Part shown: positions 7,947 through 30,804 of the stretch, piece by piece
Layout of the letters: every line of letters begins with the position of its first letter
How positions within the stretch are numbered: position 1 is the first letter of the stretch
Origin: Liolophura sinensis
Lineage: Eukaryota; Mollusca; Polyplacophora; Chitonida; Chitonidae
Assembly: GCF_032854445.1 (NCBI RefSeq)
Contig: NC_088295.1
Span: 90,043,836-90,107,835, forward strand
Reading direction: 5' to 3'
DNA: 64,000 bases
Made by a program: the position numbers and the translations under genes
Notes under the pieces: model-generated
The model's database searches: none
What the model was told of the DNA's origin: nothing
The model's input: only the letters and a program-made list of their open reading frames with translations

Positions 7947-8287
7947 GTCGAGGATGGTAGTGTATACAAACGTTTATATCCGATAGTTTACAACCAAAAT
8001 GGTGTGAACATTCCTCAGAAGGAAGTTCTTCAATTACCCATGTTGGCGTAGGTACCATCATCTGACCAACATCGAGTAAGTTAAAATTTCGTCAGTCAAC
8101 AACAGCCAGATGTATAAATAAATAAAGCTAAATAATAATTAATAAAATAATAAGATAAAAATGGCTTTTGTATTTTATTCGACAAAATAAATTGCTTGCC
8201 GTTTTACTAAAGTAAGATACCATAAATCTTGGGCTGGGATCATATACATTCAATTGGCTGATACAAAATTTGTTTACTGTGTTTCAG

Positions 8288-8394
8288 TGAGTTGTCAGAA
8301 CCCCCAGATTGTGGAAGACATTTTCCCTGAAGTGAAGAGGAAAGGTGACACAGGCTACCTGAACTGTACTGTCAGCAGGCAACAGAACAATAAG
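8288..8394 (+). CDS. Gene K exon a: start of Ig1
   Basis: Acceptor TGTGTTTCAG before 8288, entered in phase 1. It encodes CQNPQIVEDIFPEVKRK and GYLNCTVSRQQNNK, with the first core Cys of Ig1 in LNC and an NCT glycosylation site. The donor is AAG|GTAGGC at 8395, leaving phase 0. The donor is weaker than several copies of itself in the following repeat. Confidence 0.88.
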
Positions 8395-11300
8395 GTAGGC
8401 TACTGGAACTATACAGTCAGTGGACAGCAGTATAATAAGGTAAACCACTTGTACAGTCAGCATATAACAAGTGAATAAAGTATCCCACCTGAACTGTACA
8501 GTCTGCAGAAGGCAGAATAATGAGGTAACCTACCTGAACTGTGCAGTCAGCAGAATAATAAAGTATGCCACCTGAACTGTACAGTCATCAGCAAGCAATC
8601 TACAGAATAATAAGGTAAGCTACTCGAATTGTGCAGACAGCAGAATAATAAGGTAAGCTACCTCAACTGTACAGTAAGTAGACAACAGAATAGGGTACCT
8701 GAATTGTACAGTCAGCAGACAACAGGATAATACTTTAAGCTATCTGACCTGTGCCGTCAGTAAACTTAAAAGTACATGTAAGCTACATAAACTGATCCGA
8801 CAGGATATTCAAAATGAAATTGAAGACTATATAAATAGATAAAAATTGACAAAATTGAAAATTTTTGAATAAATATGGACGTGAAGCACAATTAATACGC
8901 CGCACTGTGCACATTACATTACTGGTGAGTGAGTGAGTGCTACAGTACTAGATATCATCACTTATCTGTATGTTACAGTCCTAGATTATCATCACTTATC
9001 TGCATGTTACAGTACTAGATTATCATCACTTATCTGCAAGTTACAGTCTAAGATTACCATCCCTTATTTAAATGTTACAGCGCTAGATTATGATTATCTG
9101 TTGATACTATTATCCATATTGTTTAGGCTGAAGTACTGTGTTAAAGTGAAGCAAATACCAATATAAAAAACTTGCTTCTTCAGTCCCGGAGAAATCAAGT
9201 GGAAATAATAAAATGATGTGAAGGATACCTTATATGGAACAGAGCTAATGCCACTGCTCAAATATGATTTACGATGATTATTAGTATTTAACACCTTCAA
9301 GTGAAAAGTCCTCAAAAACAAAATCTTCGGCAGTTTCCGTAAAACTTGTCGTGTAATGACGTGATACTATGCATTATGTAACGACGAATCCAATTGTGAC
9401 TAACAAAGGCACTAACTGGCAAAGTAATGGAGACTTCTCAGCCAGTAAGGTTCTGTTTTGTATTCTTTGACCTTTGCTTCAGCTCCTGATGGTTCTTAAG
9501 GTATCTTGCAGGGTGTTGTTCATCCATAAACACGGCCGCTCTCGTACAAGTGAAATGGGTTCCAGGACAATCTACCCCCATTCCTCATTTTCTACCATTT
9601 TATTGACTGACGCAGTCTTCCATCAGAGGCAGCGAATGCAAAGTTCTGAGTCTGAGGGAAATCGGCTCTAAGAAACATTATAGTAGTGTTATGCATTTAT
9701 TTGGAAAGACCGCCTCTCTTTCGATGGCGGGGAATCCCTGTTTCCTGGTTAGAAACTCATGCTTTGTAAAAGTCCAACCGTCTTAACTTTGGCTTTCATG
9801 CCATAGACCAGGACAAAGCAAATGAGTCTGATACTGTTGCTACTGAAGGTACTGATGGATGCACGGTGGATGAGTCAGTGAAGGGACTGTTATAGGCGGA
9901 GCTTTGCTGTCTTCTTAACATAGTATTACTATTGTCATTACAGGTTAATTGGATCCAACCATTGGGCGGTGTTAATGATAACTGGATTTCCAGCGACACG
10001 GAAATTTTGGCTAAAAACGAAGTGGTCAATGGAAAACAGAAGTATGAAGTTATCCGCCATGTACGTGGAAATGATAAAATCACCTACACTCTGGTGGTAA
10101 ACCGACTGCGTGAAGAAGATAGCGGTAGATACAAATGTACGGTATTTCTTGTTGGAAAAGACCAGAGGGAATGGCCGTACAAGTACGGGAATATGACCGT
10201 ACAAGGTAATGATTGAACACCATTATTCCAAATTAAATGTCTTGTCTTTTCATGTATGAGTAGATATTCATTCTGGGACTTGCCTCAGCCAAGACGTAGC
10301 CAGTGGTGCCTACCTTTTAGAGGTCAGCTCATATATTTTGACAGAAAGTTTTCCTGTTATTGCCATGGAGGGTCTTTGTGGCAAGTAGCGGTCGACGACA
10401 CTTAATCGTGTCGTGTAATCCTATAGCATAGGGGCCTCTTGCACAAAGCGATCGTAGGATATGTTGACTGTAACTGCCATGGTAACATATGCTTTTAACA
10501 TGTGTCGCCATGGTAGTTACAATCAACTTAGTCTACGGTCGCTTTGTGCAAGAGGCCCCAGACACACTGTAGTTACGACCACAGTACCTACAACATTTGC
10601 AATTCACCACAATCTTTTAATGGTTGTCAGTTGCTGCCATTCACCCTGATTAAAACCCAAGGAATTGCCTGCAGTCACACCCAAAGTGATTCTTTGACTT
10701 CCACTCTTATTTATCAGCGTGATCGCAAGACATCACAGGCTTTCTGTGACAAAATATGCTTTGTATTATTGAAGATCGTTTGAGATGTTGATACACAACT
10801 CGTTTAAATATACCTTATCGTTTGCGATGCGCGTATGAAAATCTACCAACAAGGCCAGACCTAAGCTGATAGCCTATAATCTAAATTGATGTACGATAAT
10901 CATTGATAACCTTTCAAGGCAGCTGGTTTTGTGCCTGCGGAAAACACCTGTCATCACCTGAACTGTCTCGCATTCGCTGGCGATATCTTCAGATTCTCCA
11001 AAGTTGCCAAGACCCCACCCATTTGTCATACGACCAATCCAAGATTTCTTTCAGAGGCATTTAGGAATTGGGATGGTATAGATTGACAGAGGCATTACTT
11101 ATGGATAAATCCATTAATTGTTATCCATAAGTAATGCCTCTGTCAATCAATCCAAGATTTACGAAGAATGCTGGCGATTTTTTGGCAGTAGATAGTCGTG
11201 GGTGTAGGAGTGACTGGGTCCTAACATGAAGTCCACAGAGACCGGTCCAGCCTCGCACGTGGGAAACTTACCCGGTGAGGTGCCAAAGGTCGGCACTGTG

Positions 11301-14300
11301 CATAGCTTCATCGATATATGAAATTAAAAATATTGTTGGCCCACATTAGAAGATGCTCATTCAACAGTGTTGATGATTTTCCATCAAGACGGACTTTCAA
11401 ATAAAAGACTGAGCAGAAACTGTAATGAATTGTCGCCGCTGTAACTGTATATGATTATGTTTTCACACTGTTAGCATTTGGTGTCATTAAAGAGAAGGTG
11501 GAAAGTTCGAAACTGCAGTTGAACAAAAACGCTGTAGTCAATTGACAAGGTTTACTTATTTTCTTTTGCATGTATGTAAGTAGCATATAGACGATGTCTA
11601 CAATCAATGTATAACACTATTTGTAAAGTGATGAAGTACCTGTCATCCACTGATTTTCCCCTTTTCATCCTTGTTAATTGTCTCCTGTCTTTCGTTTCAT
11701 TTTTCAACTTTAGTTCCACCAACAATTAAAGTGTCGCAGACCTCAGACACAGTCCAGCGAAATCAGGCATCTGATGTTACTCTCAGGTGCAACGCTACAG
11801 GTAATCCAAACCCCAACATCACCTGGATCAGAGCAGACGGCAAGCCTCTACCAGATGGCAGGCTCAGTCACAGGGTAAGTAATGACTTGAGGTAACTAGA
11901 AGGTTTCAGCAATAATGAAGGCAGCCCCACTGACACGTGCCCTAACGTTATTCCTCTTCCACTGGCATATCTAGGCTAGTCTTTGAGCTAAGGATGTAAC
12001 CCTAACCATGACTGATTGTCCAGTTTGGTTATTTCAACATCTTTTATATGACTCAGTGAAATACATCTCTCTTCGAACTGTGTGTAAATGGTGCAAATTA
12101 AACAAATGTAGTGAGACTGTATTGTGGGACTAATTAAATATTTGTAGTGTTGAAAATCCATTAAGTTTGTTTAAAGCAACTTTGCAAGGAGAAGCTTTAA
12201 TAACCCAAAATTGAAGACTTTGTACAAATTTGTTTTCGATAGTCTATAGAAAAAGACATTGCACGAACACATCCAGTTAATGACAATATTTTGAGTGCAC
12301 ATGATATTATATAAGTATACATTCCTCCTTTAATTTTAGGGTCATTTTCTACACATCACAAATATCAGGAATGATGATCGAGGGATTTACAGATGCCTGG
12401 CAGACAACAACGTGATACCACCCGCCCACCATGACGCTAAGCTGGTAGTAAACTTCAAGCCAGAGGCCGAAGCTGTGCAGGACACAGTGGGACAGGCCCA
12501 GAATAGACGGTTCCATGCTCTTTTAGAATGTAAAATAAAAGGTACATTAAGTCACCATAATTCCATGTTTCTGAGGTCATCTAAAGGTCATGCAAATGAA
12601 AATTACCAATTTCGAATATGGAAGAAAAGCTTCGCCAACTGTGTATATGCATTGGTAATTTAACCCACATATAGTTTACAAAAGCACACCCTTTGTGTTC
12701 TCGTGATGTTTCATAACCGAGAAAGCAAGCACTCTGGGAAAGTCGAAAGCACTACCATGCTAGAAATTTTAACCAATCAGGCGTTGGTTATTTCCATAAC
12801 CCGAGAATTCAGCTGTTTCCGCTCACTTCACACCAAATCTCGCTTGCTCAAAATTGTTCATTTGTGCATGCATGGGGTACAATTGACGACCTCATGTTTC
12901 CGGTTCTCAAACATGAATTATCTCGTGGTCTCTTAAGAATTCCAGATTCAACGATGATTTGTAGGGTTACCAAGCTCGTCAGATATGCAGACTTCCTCTC
13001 CGGCCGTACGTGGGAAGGTCTTCCAGCAGCCTGCGGATGGTTGTGGGTTTCCTCCGGGCTCTGCGCGGTTTCCTTTCACCATAATGCTGGCCGCTGCCGT
13101 ATAAGTAAATTATTCTTCAGTACAGCGTAAAACATCAATCAGTCAAATAAATAAATAAAAATATATGGCTGTGCCGTTTAGGGCTGTTTCTGCTCTTCTA
13201 CCAAAAGATGATCACAGGGCTTCTCTTTCAAAATGGCAGATACCTGACCGGTCCTTGGTTTGAAAGATGATAGTGAATGCTGAGATGTTAAATTGCATTG
13301 TTGTCTTTTAGGGATGCCAGAGCCGAACCTGAGGTGGTTCATGGTCACAGACACAGGTCCTGTTTCCCTGATAGACGATGCCAAGCATGATATCAATCAG
13401 CTGCTCACCCACGGCACATCATTGCAACTCAATGATGTTTGGTACTCACTGAAAATCCTCAACGTCCAAGCGAATGATTACGGCGTGTACTATTGTGAGG
13501 GATCAAATGCTCTGGGGACAAGTCGTGCAGAGATTAGACTTTATGGTAAGATGGTTACAATGCGTTGAAGGTGTTGAAGGTATAACTACATCACCACAAT
13601 AAAGATGGCAGGACTGACAAACATTTTAGGCTGAAATAGCCAGGGTGTCCAAATTACCCGAGGGTCCATATAAATCCAGTTTACCCCAAGTGTTAAATAT
13701 CCCCTTGCCGTTAGCATTTCTTGCATTTCTATGTCATTCATGGCTTATATGTTCTCACATCAACCTTGACATTTCCATACCCTCTCATATATTTCCTCGT
13801 TTTTTTCGTTGTCATTCCTCGTATCTATAAACTCCAAAACCCTCTGTGTACCAATGTTTTTCCCGCACAGCCGTTTGAGACTGAAACTCTGAAATGCCTT
13901 TTCTTCAGTCATCGGATGAGCTTAGGACATAAACTCTCATAGCCCTGTAAGAACTTTTGTTTTCAACAACAAATCCCTCTGACCTAAATTCCTGTTTGTG
14001 TACCATTTCTTTAATTATTACATTCGTATATTATACGAAATCGCGCAAACGGCTGTGTTCCATTGCGTTTGCCACCACTTTCGTTTCTGACATAGATCCT
14101 TTGTATGCCATTGCCTTGAAGACATTTGTGTACCATTGCTTTAGCAATCACATGCGTTTGTGACATGGAATCTTAAAGACGTTTTTGTACCAATCCTATA
14201 AAATTCACGTCTATCCGCGACATTTGGCCTTGAAGACATTTGTGTACCACTGCTTTAGCAATGACATGGACATACAGACGTGTGTGTACTAGTCCTTTAG

Positions 14301-25050: not shown

Positions 25051-28000
25051 CTGAAACAGGAAAGAGATTAACGCACATGATTTTTATGATCCTGTATGAG
25101 CCCGACCGCTTCTGACCAAACAGGTTTCTTGCTAATCATTCATCTCTTATTGGCATCAGTCAATCTCCGTTTGTCGCAGTTCATACTGAAATGAGATCGA
25201 AACTATACTCGTTGAAATGGAGAAATTATTGCATTCATTGAAATGGTGAAACTAGAGCATTCGTTGAAATTGCAAAACTATGTTTGCGTCCTGTGAAATG
25301 GCGTCCCTAACAACTGTTGGTGTTAACAATCCATCAAGATTCAAAATGCATGGTTATTTAGAGGATTCAAACTTTTAGACAGAATGTGCACGGAAATAGG
25401 CTAGTTACACATTAGAACATGACGGTTAAAGTGCTTATTTTGTATTATTAGCCACAGAAAAATTACCTCATTCAGAAGAAAGTTGTCCTTCCACCAGGTC
25501 ACAGTGGATCCAGGGGGCGCTGTGACTCGACAGTCCAACCGGAAGGAGCTACCTGCGCGCGGGAAGCCCGTTGTGCTCAGTCGGACGGACAGACGCTCAC
25601 CTGACAAATACACAACTCTTGGAGTTTACTTGCGTATGTAATCATTGAAGAACATTTCATTCATAAATACTTGAACAGTTTATCACCATGCTTATTTGTT
25701 ATTTTGACGATATTAGATGCTTTAAAAAATTATTTAAAGTTTAAGTATGTTTTCTCTTGTAGCTTTTCCGCCTCAGTGTTAAAATACAACAATTTCGTCC
25801 TGTGCGTTATGTCGAACAATGCAGGTCTTATTTAAAAATATCGTCCATCGATGAAGACTAGTTGTCCACTTTTTACATTCGGTCAAGAAATTCTGTTACG
25901 TATTCTGTTTGTTCGTCCATCATAGAATCATCAAAATTTCCCTTTACAACTGATCACAACGTGTGTGCAGTTCGTAAGGAACGAATCCAAGAATAACATG
26001 CTTCGGCGGTAAACTTGAGGGACTAGTTTGAAGGATGGGTGGAAATTGATGAGCAGACATGGGCGTCGACTTTTGGAATAACGTGCGTTTTGGTTTACAT
26101 GGTAAATTATGAGATAAATGATAATTTATGAGTGAGTACATGATCACGATATAAACGTTGAATTTCGGTCACAAAACTCTGGCTGTCGCTCTGTTTTCAT
26201 TAACCAATCAAAATCGTTGAGCAATACCCAAGAAAAGCTACTCTCAGCATTAAACTAATATCAAAAGCTTATTTCTCACCAAAACTGGGCCTCATTGCGA
26301 CTGCGCCACCAGCACCTGAACACAACAAATCAGAGGCACGTCTGTACTCCTTATCAATCAGTCAATCTTTTATTATATTTTTATGATAGCTTGTGATATA
26401 ACCTGGCACATAATCTTCACATTCACTTCAAACAATTTGCCAAGACTTGTTCTTTATATTTTAGAAAGAAATTTGAAATAATTTTATGTATATTTTACAA
26501 CCTACTTGAAATATTATTCGTAGAATGGTACAAGATTGCTTTATAATCACACATCATATGTAACAGAGACATGTATATTACAGAACTTTTAATGTCAACA
26601 GCCAATTTAGGAAAACTTTTTTTGAACCTGGTATTAAAAGTCCCCGGTTTTAACCTGGACTGACACAGAACTATATATGCACAATGCCTACCATTGACAT
26701 TGACTTGTACGGAACTCCTCGCCGCGCTGCCGTCTTTGCTCACCTCACATCTGTAGCGCCCAGCGTCAGAGAGCTGCACACTAGCAATGGTCAACAGCTG
26801 GTGTTGTCCATCAATTCGGGTTTCGGAACTTAATTGCACTCCAGGCTACAAACGATACAAATGTCGATTTTATACCTATAAAATAAATATACACTTACTA
26901 CTAACCAACTTAAACATGCACGCACATTTACCACTTACCAACTTAGACACTTACCTCTAGGCTATCAAAATGATAAAACCAACCAAATAAGACATCCAGT
27001 TTCAGCTTTAATACAACCCCTTGAAACTAATCACAAGTACAGTTCTGTTTTCTCCAAAATACTAGTAACAGGTTTTTATTTGAAATTCACAGTGGATTGT
27101 GACAGTACACTGCACCTTACCGATGATATCCGTCGGTAGTCCTTGTACCATGTAACTGTTGCCCCTGATGGGGCAGACACTCGACAATCCAACTGCAGTC
27201 TTTGTCCAACACTAGCAGGTCCGGTAAATGCCAAACTGGCTGACAGACGATCCCTCGGTCCTGGAACCAATCCGAGATGTAATCAACGTTAGACAGATAG
27301 GAAACGTTTGTTGCAGCAAGATCACGGTGCAATGCGTTGCCACTGATCATCATGGTAATTATAGCACACACGGGCGTTTCGCCGACTACACCTATTCATT
27401 CCAGTGCCAGTCAAGAACACCGCGCCGTGTTCTCATGAACTTGTGATTAAGGGCCCGATAGTATATGTAAATAACAAGTAAATGTAAATTTCACCTGCCT
27501 GATTGCTGTGGTTCAGTTGGCCTTACAGTTGGCATCTGGGTTGTTCTTTTGTTCAAAACAATACCACTGGGAGCTGTAAAACATATTGCTGTCGTCAGTA
27601 TCTAACACGTTTCAACTTCACAACAACAATGTTTTTAACAAGCTGATCTACATCATGTGGGATGATTAACGCAAAGCAGCATATTTGAAGGAATTTTTCG
27701 CGTTCACTGAATGCACAAGTCATAGATAGATGACGGCTTGCGATAGCCATCTTGGAAAACGCAGCGCGGCATAAAGCAATTACAACCATTGTCTTGAAAA
27801 TGACAAAAGGCAAGGCACAGTCCTAATTTGAAAGTACTTTTTTCTTTCAGTTCTATATTTAGCGTTCACGACATGAATTAGACACTGACAGGTTCATGAA
27901 AGTTAAGCTAACAGAAGGCAGTCATCTTGAAACCCAAGGCAATACTATACTCAAGTCTGAAAGCGATGCATTGAATATCGCACTCATAATGCAGGTGCAC

Positions 28001-30804
28001 GGGGTGGGCTGAGGGACAGCAGCATTCCCAGATCAACATTTCTTTGTCTGGGGTTAGGGAGCTTAAATCCACAGACGATTCTTCGTTTGAGATTTAACGG
28101 TACAGAAATTAAAAACATTCTATAGTTTGAAGCATTGAACCATATCCAAACAGGGTGAAATGAGGATTGTGAGTATATTGCACGTAACTGAAGTTTTCTT
28201 TATACCTCATGGATATGACGCATGATGCATTTACCTAAATGGGGACCGGCAAAAGTATTTCGTTGTCAGAAGAATCTTGATGCTGTGAGATTGTTAACTT
28301 ACCCCTGACGAAAAGATATGCAGAGCCGCTGGCCCGTGTTCTGCCCGTCGACGCTGAACAGACGTAGCTGCCGGCGTCTGAGGCCTGGACGTTACTAAGC
28401 GTCAGCACAGAAAACGTGGCGTACGGACGTACGTCGTTTTGTATCTTTATCATCCCTTCCTGACAACATTCCAAGCGACCACATTACATTTACGTTACGG
28501 CTTGTCACGAGCACAGCACAGTTTGCACACATGAACTTTTGCATATAATTATTACTAACTGTCCCAATCCATCACAGGTTACACATGATTTCTTGTTACA
28601 AAAGCTGTACATGTGACAGGGTGGTTACTATAAATGACAATGTTCAGAGAATCCAGTGAACAGGTTCCCGAAAGGTTACTAAACTCACAGATATACCCTG
28701 TGATAATTTAGGCTGTTAGTATTCTGGTCACCAAGTGTCACAATCTGTAGAATTTGTGTACACATATGGCTTTTTTGTGGGTTACAAAATCCATTCATGG
28801 AAAGTGGTTACTTGTGTTTTTTTCCCGTTACCTGATCACTAAGTGATGTAAATCCTTTTCTCCACGAAGGCGTTGGCATGGGGTTTCCCCGGATTTCACA
28901 GCGGAACACGGCCTGTCCCCCGATACTCACAGGTCCCTTATGAGTCACCCGGGCCATGATCCGATCTGAAGATCAAACAGGGTCACGAATCAATTATGCT
29001 GAAGGCTTGGATAAAGTAATAAAGGATTTTTAAACTGTTAATATACTTTATGCATTGTAATTTAAAAGTCCATATATTCACACATTCCAACACATTCGGC
29101 GTACGCCGAGCGATTTGTCTACATCACCTCTGATCACCGAGGACGCGCGCTCGAATCCTGGTCTAGACCTATATGTACATGGCCCTGTCTGAAGTTCAGT
29201 GTAATATTAAGTGTTTGGTGCATTTAACAAGGCACGCTGGTTCTAAACCCGGCTTCCGGACAACTACAGTTCTAATCCATGTAGCCCTGTCTGCGATTCA
29301 AGGGTATAAGAAATCTGTTTTTCATGCATTTTTACAAACTGCAATGATTTCCTCGTCGGGTTTTCCACTCCTATATAATCCTGGTAGAAAGCGAAAAGTG
29401 ACTTGTTTTTAGCAAGGCATATAAAAGTCCAATAAATACATAAACAATACCGAAGAACTGAAAAAAATATCTCTTCAAAGCGCCTTTACGGTGTGTTTCC
29501 ACCATTGGTACACAGCCCTTTTGCCGTACCTTAATGGACTCGCAGAACGAATTCCTTAGATCTCGGGGCATAACTTGAATAAATACCCCCTCAGACTCAC
29601 ACCAACACACTCATGTTCAAATTTACACGCTATTTGAGCTAACTAAAAAAGAAATTGTGAATTTGTCGACACCGTTGAGAGTAGAAACAGACGATCTTAC
29701 GCTGTAGGACAATTCTGCTGACAGCCGACACGATGGCATTCTGGGAGTTAGCCGCTCGGCAGGTCCATTCTCCGATGTCTCTATCGTCCACGGATACGAT
29801 CACAGTTTGAATTTGGCTGTGAATTAACAAAAACGAAAAATATGCAATAATTAATATGCATTACTGATGTTCTGCTAACCGCGAAATATAATCTTTTATA
29901 CCGCGGGAAACTGTGTTTTGCGACCATATTCTAAACATGTAAACTTTGCATAATTAAAAGCAATCGCTCGAACTACCGAGTTTGTTCAAAAGAAAATTCA
30001 GTTGTATGATCCTCATTTTAAATCAGAAAATCAAAAGTATTTAAAAAAATATAAATACTATTATACAGTTTAAAAACTACAGAATAAAAAAAATAAAAAA
30101 ATAAAACTACATCTCTCACTTGCTGGATGGTTGAGTGGGACGGTAGATCTGACCGCTCGGCGATATGAGCTGCAAACCCGATTCTGTGACGTCACCTGTA
30201 CACGTCACGGTGGTTTGGGAGCCCAACTCGACGGTGACACTGGACGATATCCGCAGGCCATGGGCATGACATGCTGGACGTAAGGGAAATGAGTCAGGAC
30301 ATACCTTGTGTAACTTTCGTATTGGGGCATAATGCAATTTTCAATATTATCTCGGTCTTCATTAAACAGCCGGGTCCGCATTTTATAATATCATGAAATG
30401 AATTCAAAATTTCTTAAATTATTTTAACATATCAAAAAAACTGGATTAAAAAGTAAAACCATATCTCCGAATGTCGTCATAATTTATACCGCCGATTTAG
30501 CCATGCCTAAGACACAACACATGACACGTCAACCACTCACAGTACAATGAGACAAACGGGTGTCCTTCTCATGTAACGTGACCGTTGCTTAGGACACCAA
30601 CATTGGTACTGAGGAAACTCTATCAAGACTTCAGTGGTGGAACTTTAATACTGAGATTCATGTACACTGCACATAACAAGCCTTTGAATCTTATAGGGGA
30701 TTCTGGCGGTCGTGGATAATGGGCGCTAAAGATAAACAGGTTCTGATGTCCTGCAGAAAGAACTTACCGATCAAACTGAGGAAGAGTGGTAGAAGCTTTG
30801 ACAT
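24874..30804 (-). CDS. Gene A: secreted four-Ig-domain protein
   Basis: Nine exons join in matching phase to 400 residues and a stop: 30804-30768, 30273-30120, 29816-29701, 28965-28832, 28459-28303, 27260-27121, 26845-26692, 25600-25467 and 25050-24874. A signal peptide (MSKLLPLFLSLIACHA) leads to Ig1 (about 20-100), Ig2 (103-199), Ig3 (200-297) and Ig4 (298-400). The protein ends a few residues after Ig4, with no hydrophobic segment, so it should be secreted. Every domain is split once inside (phase 2 in Ig1, phase 0 in Ig2-4), and domains are joined by phase 1 introns, the classic arrangement for domain duplication. Ig3 and Ig4 are close paralogues (both have RLDC/QLDC, then APxGxTVTW and DSGRYRCEV or DAGRYRCEV). 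I do not recognise an orthologue. Secreted multi-Ig proteins such as insect hemolin or the molluscan defence molecule are possible analogues, which is inference only. Confidence 0.88.
25051..25466. other. Gene A intron 8
   Basis: Contains three loose copies of a phrase ATTCGTTGAAATGG-AAACTA near 25200-25300. Otherwise unremarkable. Confidence 0.6.
25467..25600 (-). CDS. Gene A exon 8: first half of Ig4
   Basis: Acceptor GTGTATTTGTCAG, phase 1 in; donor GAG|GTAATT, phase 0 out. It encodes GERLSVRLSTTG, SFRLDCRVTAPPGSTVTWWK and ends NFLLNE. Core Cys and Trp are present. Confidence 0.92.
25601..26691. other. Gene A intron 7
   Basis: About 1.1 kb of AT-rich intron. The ORF at 25944-26147 (-) has no motif. 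No repeat seen. Confidence 0.6.
26692..26845 (-). CDS. Gene A exon 7: second half of Ig3
   Basis: Acceptor TCGTTTGTAG, phase 0 in; donor G|GTAGGC, phase 1 out. It begins PGVQLSSETRIDGQHQ, contains SDAGRYRCEVSKDGSAA with the core Cys, and ends VQVNVN. Confidence 0.92.
27121..27260 (-). CDS. Gene A exon 6: first half of Ig3
   Basis: Acceptor TTGGTTCCAG, phase 1 in; donor TCG|GTAAGG, phase 0 out. It encodes PRDRLSASLAFTGPASVG, LQLDCRVSAPSGATVTWYK and DYRRISS. The paralogue of exon 8. Confidence 0.92.
27261..28302. other. Gene A intron 5
   Basis: About 1 kb with no repeat or additional exon recognised. ORFs at 27228-27446 (+) and 27595-27813 (-) show no domain. Confidence 0.55.
28303..28459 (-). 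CDS. Gene A exon 5: second half of Ig2
   Basis: Acceptor GGAATGTTGTCAG, phase 0 in; donor G|GTAAGT, phase 1 out. It begins EGMIKIQNDVRPYATFSVL and contains SDAGSYVCSASTGRTRASG with the core Cys. Confidence 0.92.
28832..28965 (-). CDS. Gene A exon 4: first half of Ig2
   Basis: Acceptor GTTTGATCTTCAG, phase 1 in; donor CAG|GTAACG, phase 0 out. It encodes RIMARVTHKGPVSIGGQAVF, RCEIRGNPMPTPSWRKG and SLSDQ, with the core Cys and Trp. Confidence 0.9.
28966..29700. other. Gene A intron 3, with tRNA-like fragments
   Basis: At 29085-29330 there are two phrases resembling a polymerase III B box (GCTCGAATCCTGG and GGTTCTAAACCCGG), and GGCCCTGTCTGAAGTTCA recurs loosely as AGCCCTGTCTGCGATTCA. This may be an old tRNA-derived SINE dimer. 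No exon was seen. Confidence 0.35.
29701..29816 (-). CDS. Gene A exon 3: second half of Ig1
   Basis: Acceptor TTGTTAATTCACAG, phase 2 in; donor C|GTAAGA, phase 1 out. It encodes QIQTVIVSVDDRDIGEWTCR with the second Cys and ends SRIVLQ. Confidence 0.9.
30120..30273 (-). CDS. Gene A exon 2: signal-peptide end and first half of Ig1
   Basis: Acceptor CCCTTACGTCCAG, phase 1 in; donor AA|GTGAGA, phase 2 out. It encodes CHAHGLRISSSVTVELGSQ, then TTVTCTGDVTESGLQLISPS and RPTQPSS. The usual core Trp of the C strand is replaced by Leu/Ile (LQLI). A Cys just after the signal peptide may be unpaired. Confidence 0.88.
30274..30767. other. Gene A intron 1
   Basis: A 494-bp intron with canonical ends and nothing else recognised. 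Confidence 0.65.
30768..30804 (-). CDS. Gene A exon 1: start codon and signal peptide
   Basis: MSKLLPLFLSLI ends at donor G|GTAAGT, phase 1, and continues ACHAHG in exon 2. The ATG at 30804 has A at -3 (ACCAAG before ATG) and places the hydrophobic core at residues 4-12. An in-frame ATG at 30825 would add seven polar residues and has T at -3. A further in-frame ATG at 30873 lies upstream of the TATA-like box. Confidence 0.85.

Follow-up and report, generated by a model that had tools for sequence, protein, structure and literature searches.

A 45-base minisatellite at an exon-intron boundary of an immunoglobulin-domain gene in the chiton Liolophura sinensis

Results

The DNA analysed here, referred to as the window, is a stretch of 64,000 nucleotides of the Liolophura sinensis genome assembly, and positions are counted from its first letter. 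The assembly was first published under the name Liolophura japonica (PMC11068029), which was later corrected to L. sinensis (PMC12441733). On the forward strand, two predicted exons of one gene (hereafter the window gene) make up a first immunoglobulin domain (Ig1). Exon a (8288 to 8394) runs from the start of Ig1 to its B strand with the Cys of LNCTV, and was delimited by translation, by the acceptor AG at 8286-8287 and by the donor AAG/GTAGGC. The same donor had been singled out in a first, sequence-only reading of this DNA, which was right on the site but numbered it 8395; the last exon base is 8394 and 8395 is the first base of the intron. Exon b (9944 to 10205), likewise on the forward strand, carries the remainder of Ig1 from the C-strand Trp, and translation joins the two exons in phase 0. 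The joined exons score 28.5 bits to the Pfam I-set model (cut-off 23.7), and further Ig-type matches lie 3' in open reading frames of the window at 11635-11895, 12340-12663 and 13284-13568.

The window gene appears to resemble Ig adhesion proteins, and a DIP/IgLON-like identity is taken as a lead only. DIP/IgLON-like adhesion proteins have three Ig domains and a GPI anchor. Single stretches in phmmer, mostly outside exon a, matched DIP-eta (2.6e-22, query 40-216), DIP-theta (3.2e-20) and NEGR1 (2.2e-18, query 79-216), whereas the overall scores were higher for MDGA1 (5.1e-34) and Dscam (2e-33) than for DIP/IgLON proteins.

Other repeats were seen in passing. The intron that follows exon b contains, by eye, a long and imperfectly matched inverted repeat at 10431-10559 (GGGGCCTCTTGCACAAAGCG... 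/ ...CGCTTTGTGCAAGAGGCCCC). A dispersed repeat of ~180 bases at 12985-13165, with at least 37 further matches of 86-90% identity spread over many contigs (from 40 scored out of 5392 candidates), is perhaps a SINE-like element. Another of ~80 bases at 30379-30459 often forms pairs in opposite orientation with less than 1 kb between them, which recalls a foldback element.

A minisatellite with a period of 45 bases is present at the boundary between exon a and the following intron. Tandem Repeats Finder (TRF) reports a row at 8352-8554 (67% matches) that starts within exon a, with overlapping rows up to 8729, and a repeat search of the window DNA located eight copies in register at 8357-8771. Alignment of the end of exon a with the first 450 bases of the intron gave a local score of 52 against a maximum of 29 in 1000 dinucleotide shuffles, which rules out chance likeness. 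The 63 bases of exon a that precede the repeat unit scored 14 against the intron (maximum 23 in 300 shuffles), so the repeated part is the exon end only. The proposal that the exon end and its donor had been copied about nine times into the intron is thereby borne out, the exon end aligning with the intronic units; the shared exon stretch measures about 43 coding bases (8352 to 8394).

Every unit repeats the exon end together with its donor, and the units run head-to-tail into the intron on the forward strand. Nine recognisable intronic copies occupy 8395-8777 and are followed by a degenerate tenth (8778 to 8817), which begins GTAAGCTACATAAACTG and whose end, like the boundaries of the last array copies, was placed by eye. 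The first intronic copy (8395 to 8439), identified by translation, donor energies and unit alignment, is 45 bases long, open and in frame. Copies 2-9 (8440 to 8777) are 38-52 bases long, and some end in a donor-like sequence, for example at 8524, 8614 and 8652. With the units cut partly by eye, the lengths are 45, 40, 45, 38, 52, 38, 42, 41, 42 and 40 bases. The distance of the units to a by-eye consensus is 0.08-0.17 in seven of the ten copies and 0.32-0.40 in copies 2, 9 and 10. A DNA search for the array as a dispersed repeat returned four matches at three loci only (three candidates scored), all belonging to the window gene and two relatives described below, and the array was rejected as a dispersed repeat; this search passes over very common words and is no proof that the array is rare.

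Use of the donor of the first copy would add 15 in-frame residues (VGYWNYTVSGQQYNK) and present a Tyr in place of the Cys, increasing the Cys-to-Trp spacing from 11 to 26. Read-through of the array meets a stop in copy 2 (TAA, 8476-8478), and every later unit-end donor lies behind it and leads to a premature stop. Both consequences had been read from the letters beforehand and hold on translation. Donor strength was approximated by U1 duplex energy, a rough proxy; the 5' end of U1 at one U1 locus of this genome (ATACTTACCTG) matches the sequence assumed for pairing. The exon donor AAG/GTAGGC reaches -9.2 kcal/mol and the first-copy donor AAG/GTAAAC is clearly weaker (-6.8 kcal/mol). Donors stronger than that of the exon do occur further into the array, as had been suggested (AAG/GTAAGC, -9.5 kcal/mol), but the margin is small and just two copies carry them, rather than several, with last bases 8614 and 8652. 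Both are behind the stop, so neither yields a stop-free product, and the sole donor of the array that does, that of the first copy, is weaker than the exon donor. The U1 snRNA genes themselves are mostly arranged as tandem ~2-kb units (G000:C10:30033968-30140539, L034), with others on C627, C6 and C7 (41 matches).

In DNA and protein searches of the genome, exons related to a and b turned up at four loci, namely the window gene, an upstream copy (U), an inverted paralog (I) and a distant paralog (D); two further matches to exon b were weak (E about 0.001). The dispersed-repeat matches mentioned above are confined to the window gene, U and I.

U lies 57.6 kb upstream of the window gene and is 99% identical to it. 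The two differ by 4 substitutions in 396 bases of the array, with no indel, by 4 in 1153 bases (0.35%) in the rest of the intron and by 20 in 2996 bases (0.67%) downstream, and the upstream stretches show 0.8-1.7% substitutions and many gaps. These counts are too few to claim faster change in the array. The window pieces 500-1000, 8300-8800 and 12400-13600 are each present in both copies, and a genome search with the piece 28000-30500 found no such U-type match. Since the downstream divergence is below the heterozygosity of 1.24% published for this assembly (PMC11068029), U may be an uncollapsed haplotype, and it was left out as an independent locus.

The array of I is longer and more regular, with about ten intronic units (TRF 45 x 11, 84% matches) and a distance to a by-eye consensus of 0-0.12 in all ten copies. 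Its intronic copies 1 and 2 are open and keep the Cys, and the NCT glycosylation motif is kept in copy 2 and lost in copy 1. The donors at +45 (GGG/GTAAGT, -10.3 kcal/mol) and +90 (GGG/GTAAGC, -9.2 kcal/mol) are in frame, and a TGA follows in the fourth intronic copy. The exon donor of I (-9.5 kcal/mol) is weaker than its first intronic donor.

I and the window gene are 76% identical over 8282-8719, with array matches up to 8803, and 91.5% identical over 9930-13550. Between these, blastn (E 1e-4) found no match over 8804-9929. The likeness resumes abruptly at 9930, ~14 bases before exon b, and holds at 91.5% for 3.6 kb; this edge beside exon b reads as one of recombination or conversion. The silent divergence is 14 changes at 20.8 sites (0.67) in exon a and 5 at 54.7 sites in exon b, and this far lower value in exon b means that the 3' part was probably exchanged or duplicated after exon a had diverged. 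The distances of the units to their consensus are likewise lower than the silent divergence of the exon, an informal comparison that suggests later turnover or exchange of the arrays. That the array can be recognised in both genes despite the unmatched intron at 8804-9929 could reflect upkeep rather than drift.

D has the same phase-0 intron as the window gene. A TRF scan of this intron did not find the 45-base array, and the exon end of D scored 14 against its own intron (shuffle mean 14.8). The intron of D does contain an unrelated minisatellite of 72 bases (19 copies, 94%; L003 2553-3927), ~190 bases past the donor.

In a survey of I-set loci, no TRF array (period at least 10) was found over the central 270 bases at any of 30 loci drawn from the 150 matches listed; the survey tests overlap with the I-set match, not true exon ends, and 19 of the 30 loci fall in one cluster (C4:19.0-19.4 Mb), some of them overlapping each other. 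Minisatellites in general (TRF period at least 10) take up 20% of the window and 5.4% of these 30 loci, a sample that leans to one cluster.

Three indirect tests favour neutral copies, more firmly in the window gene than in I. The first compares synonymous (S) and nonsynonymous (N) changes. Exon a has changed mostly synonymously between the window gene and I (14 S, 2 N; counted over 8287-8394, including the acceptor G, which is identical in the four genes compared). The open copies (window copy 1 and I copies 1-3) differ from an I-type exon end by 5.5 S and 15.5 N changes, S making up ~19% of sites. Fisher's test on rounded counts (14,2 vs 6,15) gives p = 0.00065, and p = 0.007 when the last 42 exon bases alone are used (5,0). 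As a control, four later copies of I that are unreadable from the exon show 4 S and 14 N changes, like the open copies. The contrast becomes milder when window copy 1 is compared with its own exon (5.5 S, 4.5 N; total then 8.5 S, 15.5 N), and the sample is small, with copies that are not independent (a change from AAG to GGG is common to I copies 1 and 2). On these counts, the open copies change as if unconstrained and exon a as if constrained.

The second test concerns the donors. The GTAAG columns are conserved in a mean of 7.8 of 10 copies in the window gene (7.6 for the rest of the unit) and in 9.6 in I (9.05 for the rest), where they are slightly better kept; the eight donor columns from -3 to +5 average 7.5 in the window gene and 8.5 in I. 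Conservation at the donor thus barely exceeds that of the remaining unit.

The third test is the fit of extended forms to Ig models. In both genes, Pfam I-set fits the plain form best: the +15 form of the window gene falls from 28.5 to 21.9 bits, below the cut-off of 23.7, and I scores 24.7 in plain form, 20.9 with +15 and 21.6 with +30. To Pfam V-set, the window gene drops from 24.0 to 17.4 bits with +15, and I gives 23.3, 24.5 and 23.7 bits in plain, +15 and +30 form, none passing the cut-off of 26, with the model realigned to the inserted copy. The Pfam ig model meets its cut-off of 21.8 in I with +30. The suggestion that the first copy creates an Ig1 variant in the window gene is weakened by these results, the copies lacking visible coding constraint, the donors being hardly kept and the +15 form falling short of the I-set cut-off.

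Discussion

We favour, at a probability of roughly 0.7, the reading that the array is a near-neutral exon-boundary minisatellite in which the first donor is normally used and the decoy donors are not a working switch. A tandem duplication across the boundary of exon a and its intron would have seeded a 45-base minisatellite, which slippage or unequal exchange may later have enlarged and turned over. As every unit brings the exon end and its donor along, the start of the intron is by now lined with decoy donors. Splicing would most likely favour the donor furthest upstream, which belongs to the exon itself; occasional use of the first copy would yield a rare +15 form and use of later copies a premature stop, and the array itself would be close to neutral. 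Since the phase-0 intron is also present in D, where no array was detected, an origin of the array in the exon is most likely, and the proposed growth direction from exon to intron is supported as the simplest. The simplest history would accordingly place the exon first and the array later, in the line of the window gene and I, with loss from D as a possibility.

Some findings pull against neutrality. Two downstream donors slightly exceed the exon donor GTAGGC in strength, and in I the first two copies are in frame with the Cys, the first intronic donor is stronger than that of the exon (-10.3 vs -9.5 kcal/mol) and GTAAG is slightly better kept (9.6 vs 9.05). A functional role of the array in the window gene is unlikely on these sequence comparisons; I is the better place to look for function.

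Among the alternatives, the one that survives best, though we consider it doubtful, is that the array acts as an expression rheostat, in line with the earlier suggestion that it tunes the amount of functional transcript. The decoy donors would capture U1 or the spliceosome, the copy number would set the level of productive transcript, and use of later donors would lead to a stop and decay. Donor-like sites with a U1 energy of -9 kcal/mol or better are indeed dense, with 3 in the window-gene array (7 per kb) and 8 in that of I (18 per kb), exon donors included, against a background of 0.36 per kb on the plus and 0.95 per kb on the minus strand of the whole window. All unit-end donors beyond the first copy lie behind the TAA at 8476, and the repeat number of human F7 correlates with mRNA level, according to a review (PMC3492156). 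Yet the donor positions show hardly more conservation than the remaining unit, and the window-gene copies are irregular and partly decayed. The lack of an array indel between U and the window gene means that no copy-number variation is seen between them, and an upstream-first choice of donor would silence the decoys.

It is improbable that the array serves to make Ig1 isoforms, in which the first copy of the window gene, or the first one or two of I, would lengthen the B-C junction by 15 or 30 residues. As 45 bases equal 15 codons and the intron is in phase 0, such insertions stay in frame, and in I the two open copies with their Cys and good donors, the realignment of V-set to the inserted copy and the ig score with +30 speak for this idea. 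The open copies show no visible coding constraint, however, all three extended forms score below the I-set cut-off, and in the window gene the copy loses the Cys, the V-set score falls and the in-frame donor is weaker than that of the exon. A narrower version, to which we give slightly less credence still, confines the role to I, whose minisatellite would be an adjustable end of Ig1 (0, 15 or 30 extra residues, Cys kept), with the window gene as its decayed form; if true, repeat turnover would rewrite an adhesion domain. Least credible is the opposite direction, in which the exon end was built from, or overwritten by, pre-existing intronic units: by eye, the exon end of I has the usual array base at silent sites -25 and -7, where the window exon has the base of D, and site -13 is mixed in the window-gene array, but silent sites in exon a are near saturation (pS 0.67-0.74), which makes this pattern weak, and the core GYLNCTV is present in D, where no array was detected, so the coding sequence is most simply older than the array.

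The near-neutral minisatellite reading has close precedents, and nothing on the window-gene array itself was found among titles in the open-licence literature, in a search not targeted at chiton splicing. In intron 7 of human F7, several repeats of 37 bp follow one another head-to-tail and the first of them contains the donor (PMC6627357, PMC3492156), and the most upstream donor alone is described as the one normally used (PMC6627357, citing Borensztajn 2006). Donor choice in F7 mutants has been tested in cell models (PMC6627357), and the repeats vary between people, with alleles H5-H7 (PMC3166910). The likeness of this repeat (HVR4 or IVS7 VNTR) to the window gene is that the intron opens with a row of homologous repeats. 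They differ in that the 37-base unit, by arithmetic, shifts the frame with each unit while the 45-base unit stays in frame, and in that alleles and donor use have been studied in F7 whereas the window gene is read from the DNA of one assembly.

De Grassi and Ciccarelli (2009) described internal tandem repeats by which human genes within segmental duplications are modified, 27 of the modifications being in introns (PMC2812944). There, too, units of minisatellite size have altered the structure of recent paralogs, in some cases where an exon meets an intron, but as described in that paper nearly all loci have RNA support, whereas the window gene belongs to an invertebrate and is known from DNA alone. 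With the F7 repeats and these catalogued repeats, this kind of array is already known. Intron gain by tandem duplication of an AGGT-bearing segment (PMC4974935) similarly copies splice signals over an exon edge; no new intron was made in the window gene, and this origin was rejected because the same phase-0 intron already exists in D, where the array was not detected.

Duplicated alternative exons, as in Dscam, also place copies of part of an Ig domain in a row within one gene. The units here are exon end and donor only, not whole exons, and read-through meets stops; this explanation was rejected, as the copies are not complete exons and the frame stops in copy 2 of the window gene and in the fourth copy of I.

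What is new at this locus is the in-frame 45-base unit inside an Ig domain together with the series of paralogs in which the array is not detected, regular or partly decayed. One stretch of 340 kb holds the paralog without a detected array, the regular array and the irregular, partly decayed one, and this natural series of near-identical competing donors makes upstream-first choice testable. The window gene shows a coding exon end that spills into its intron while the exon stays constrained, and provides a clear invertebrate parallel to the boundary minisatellite of human F7.
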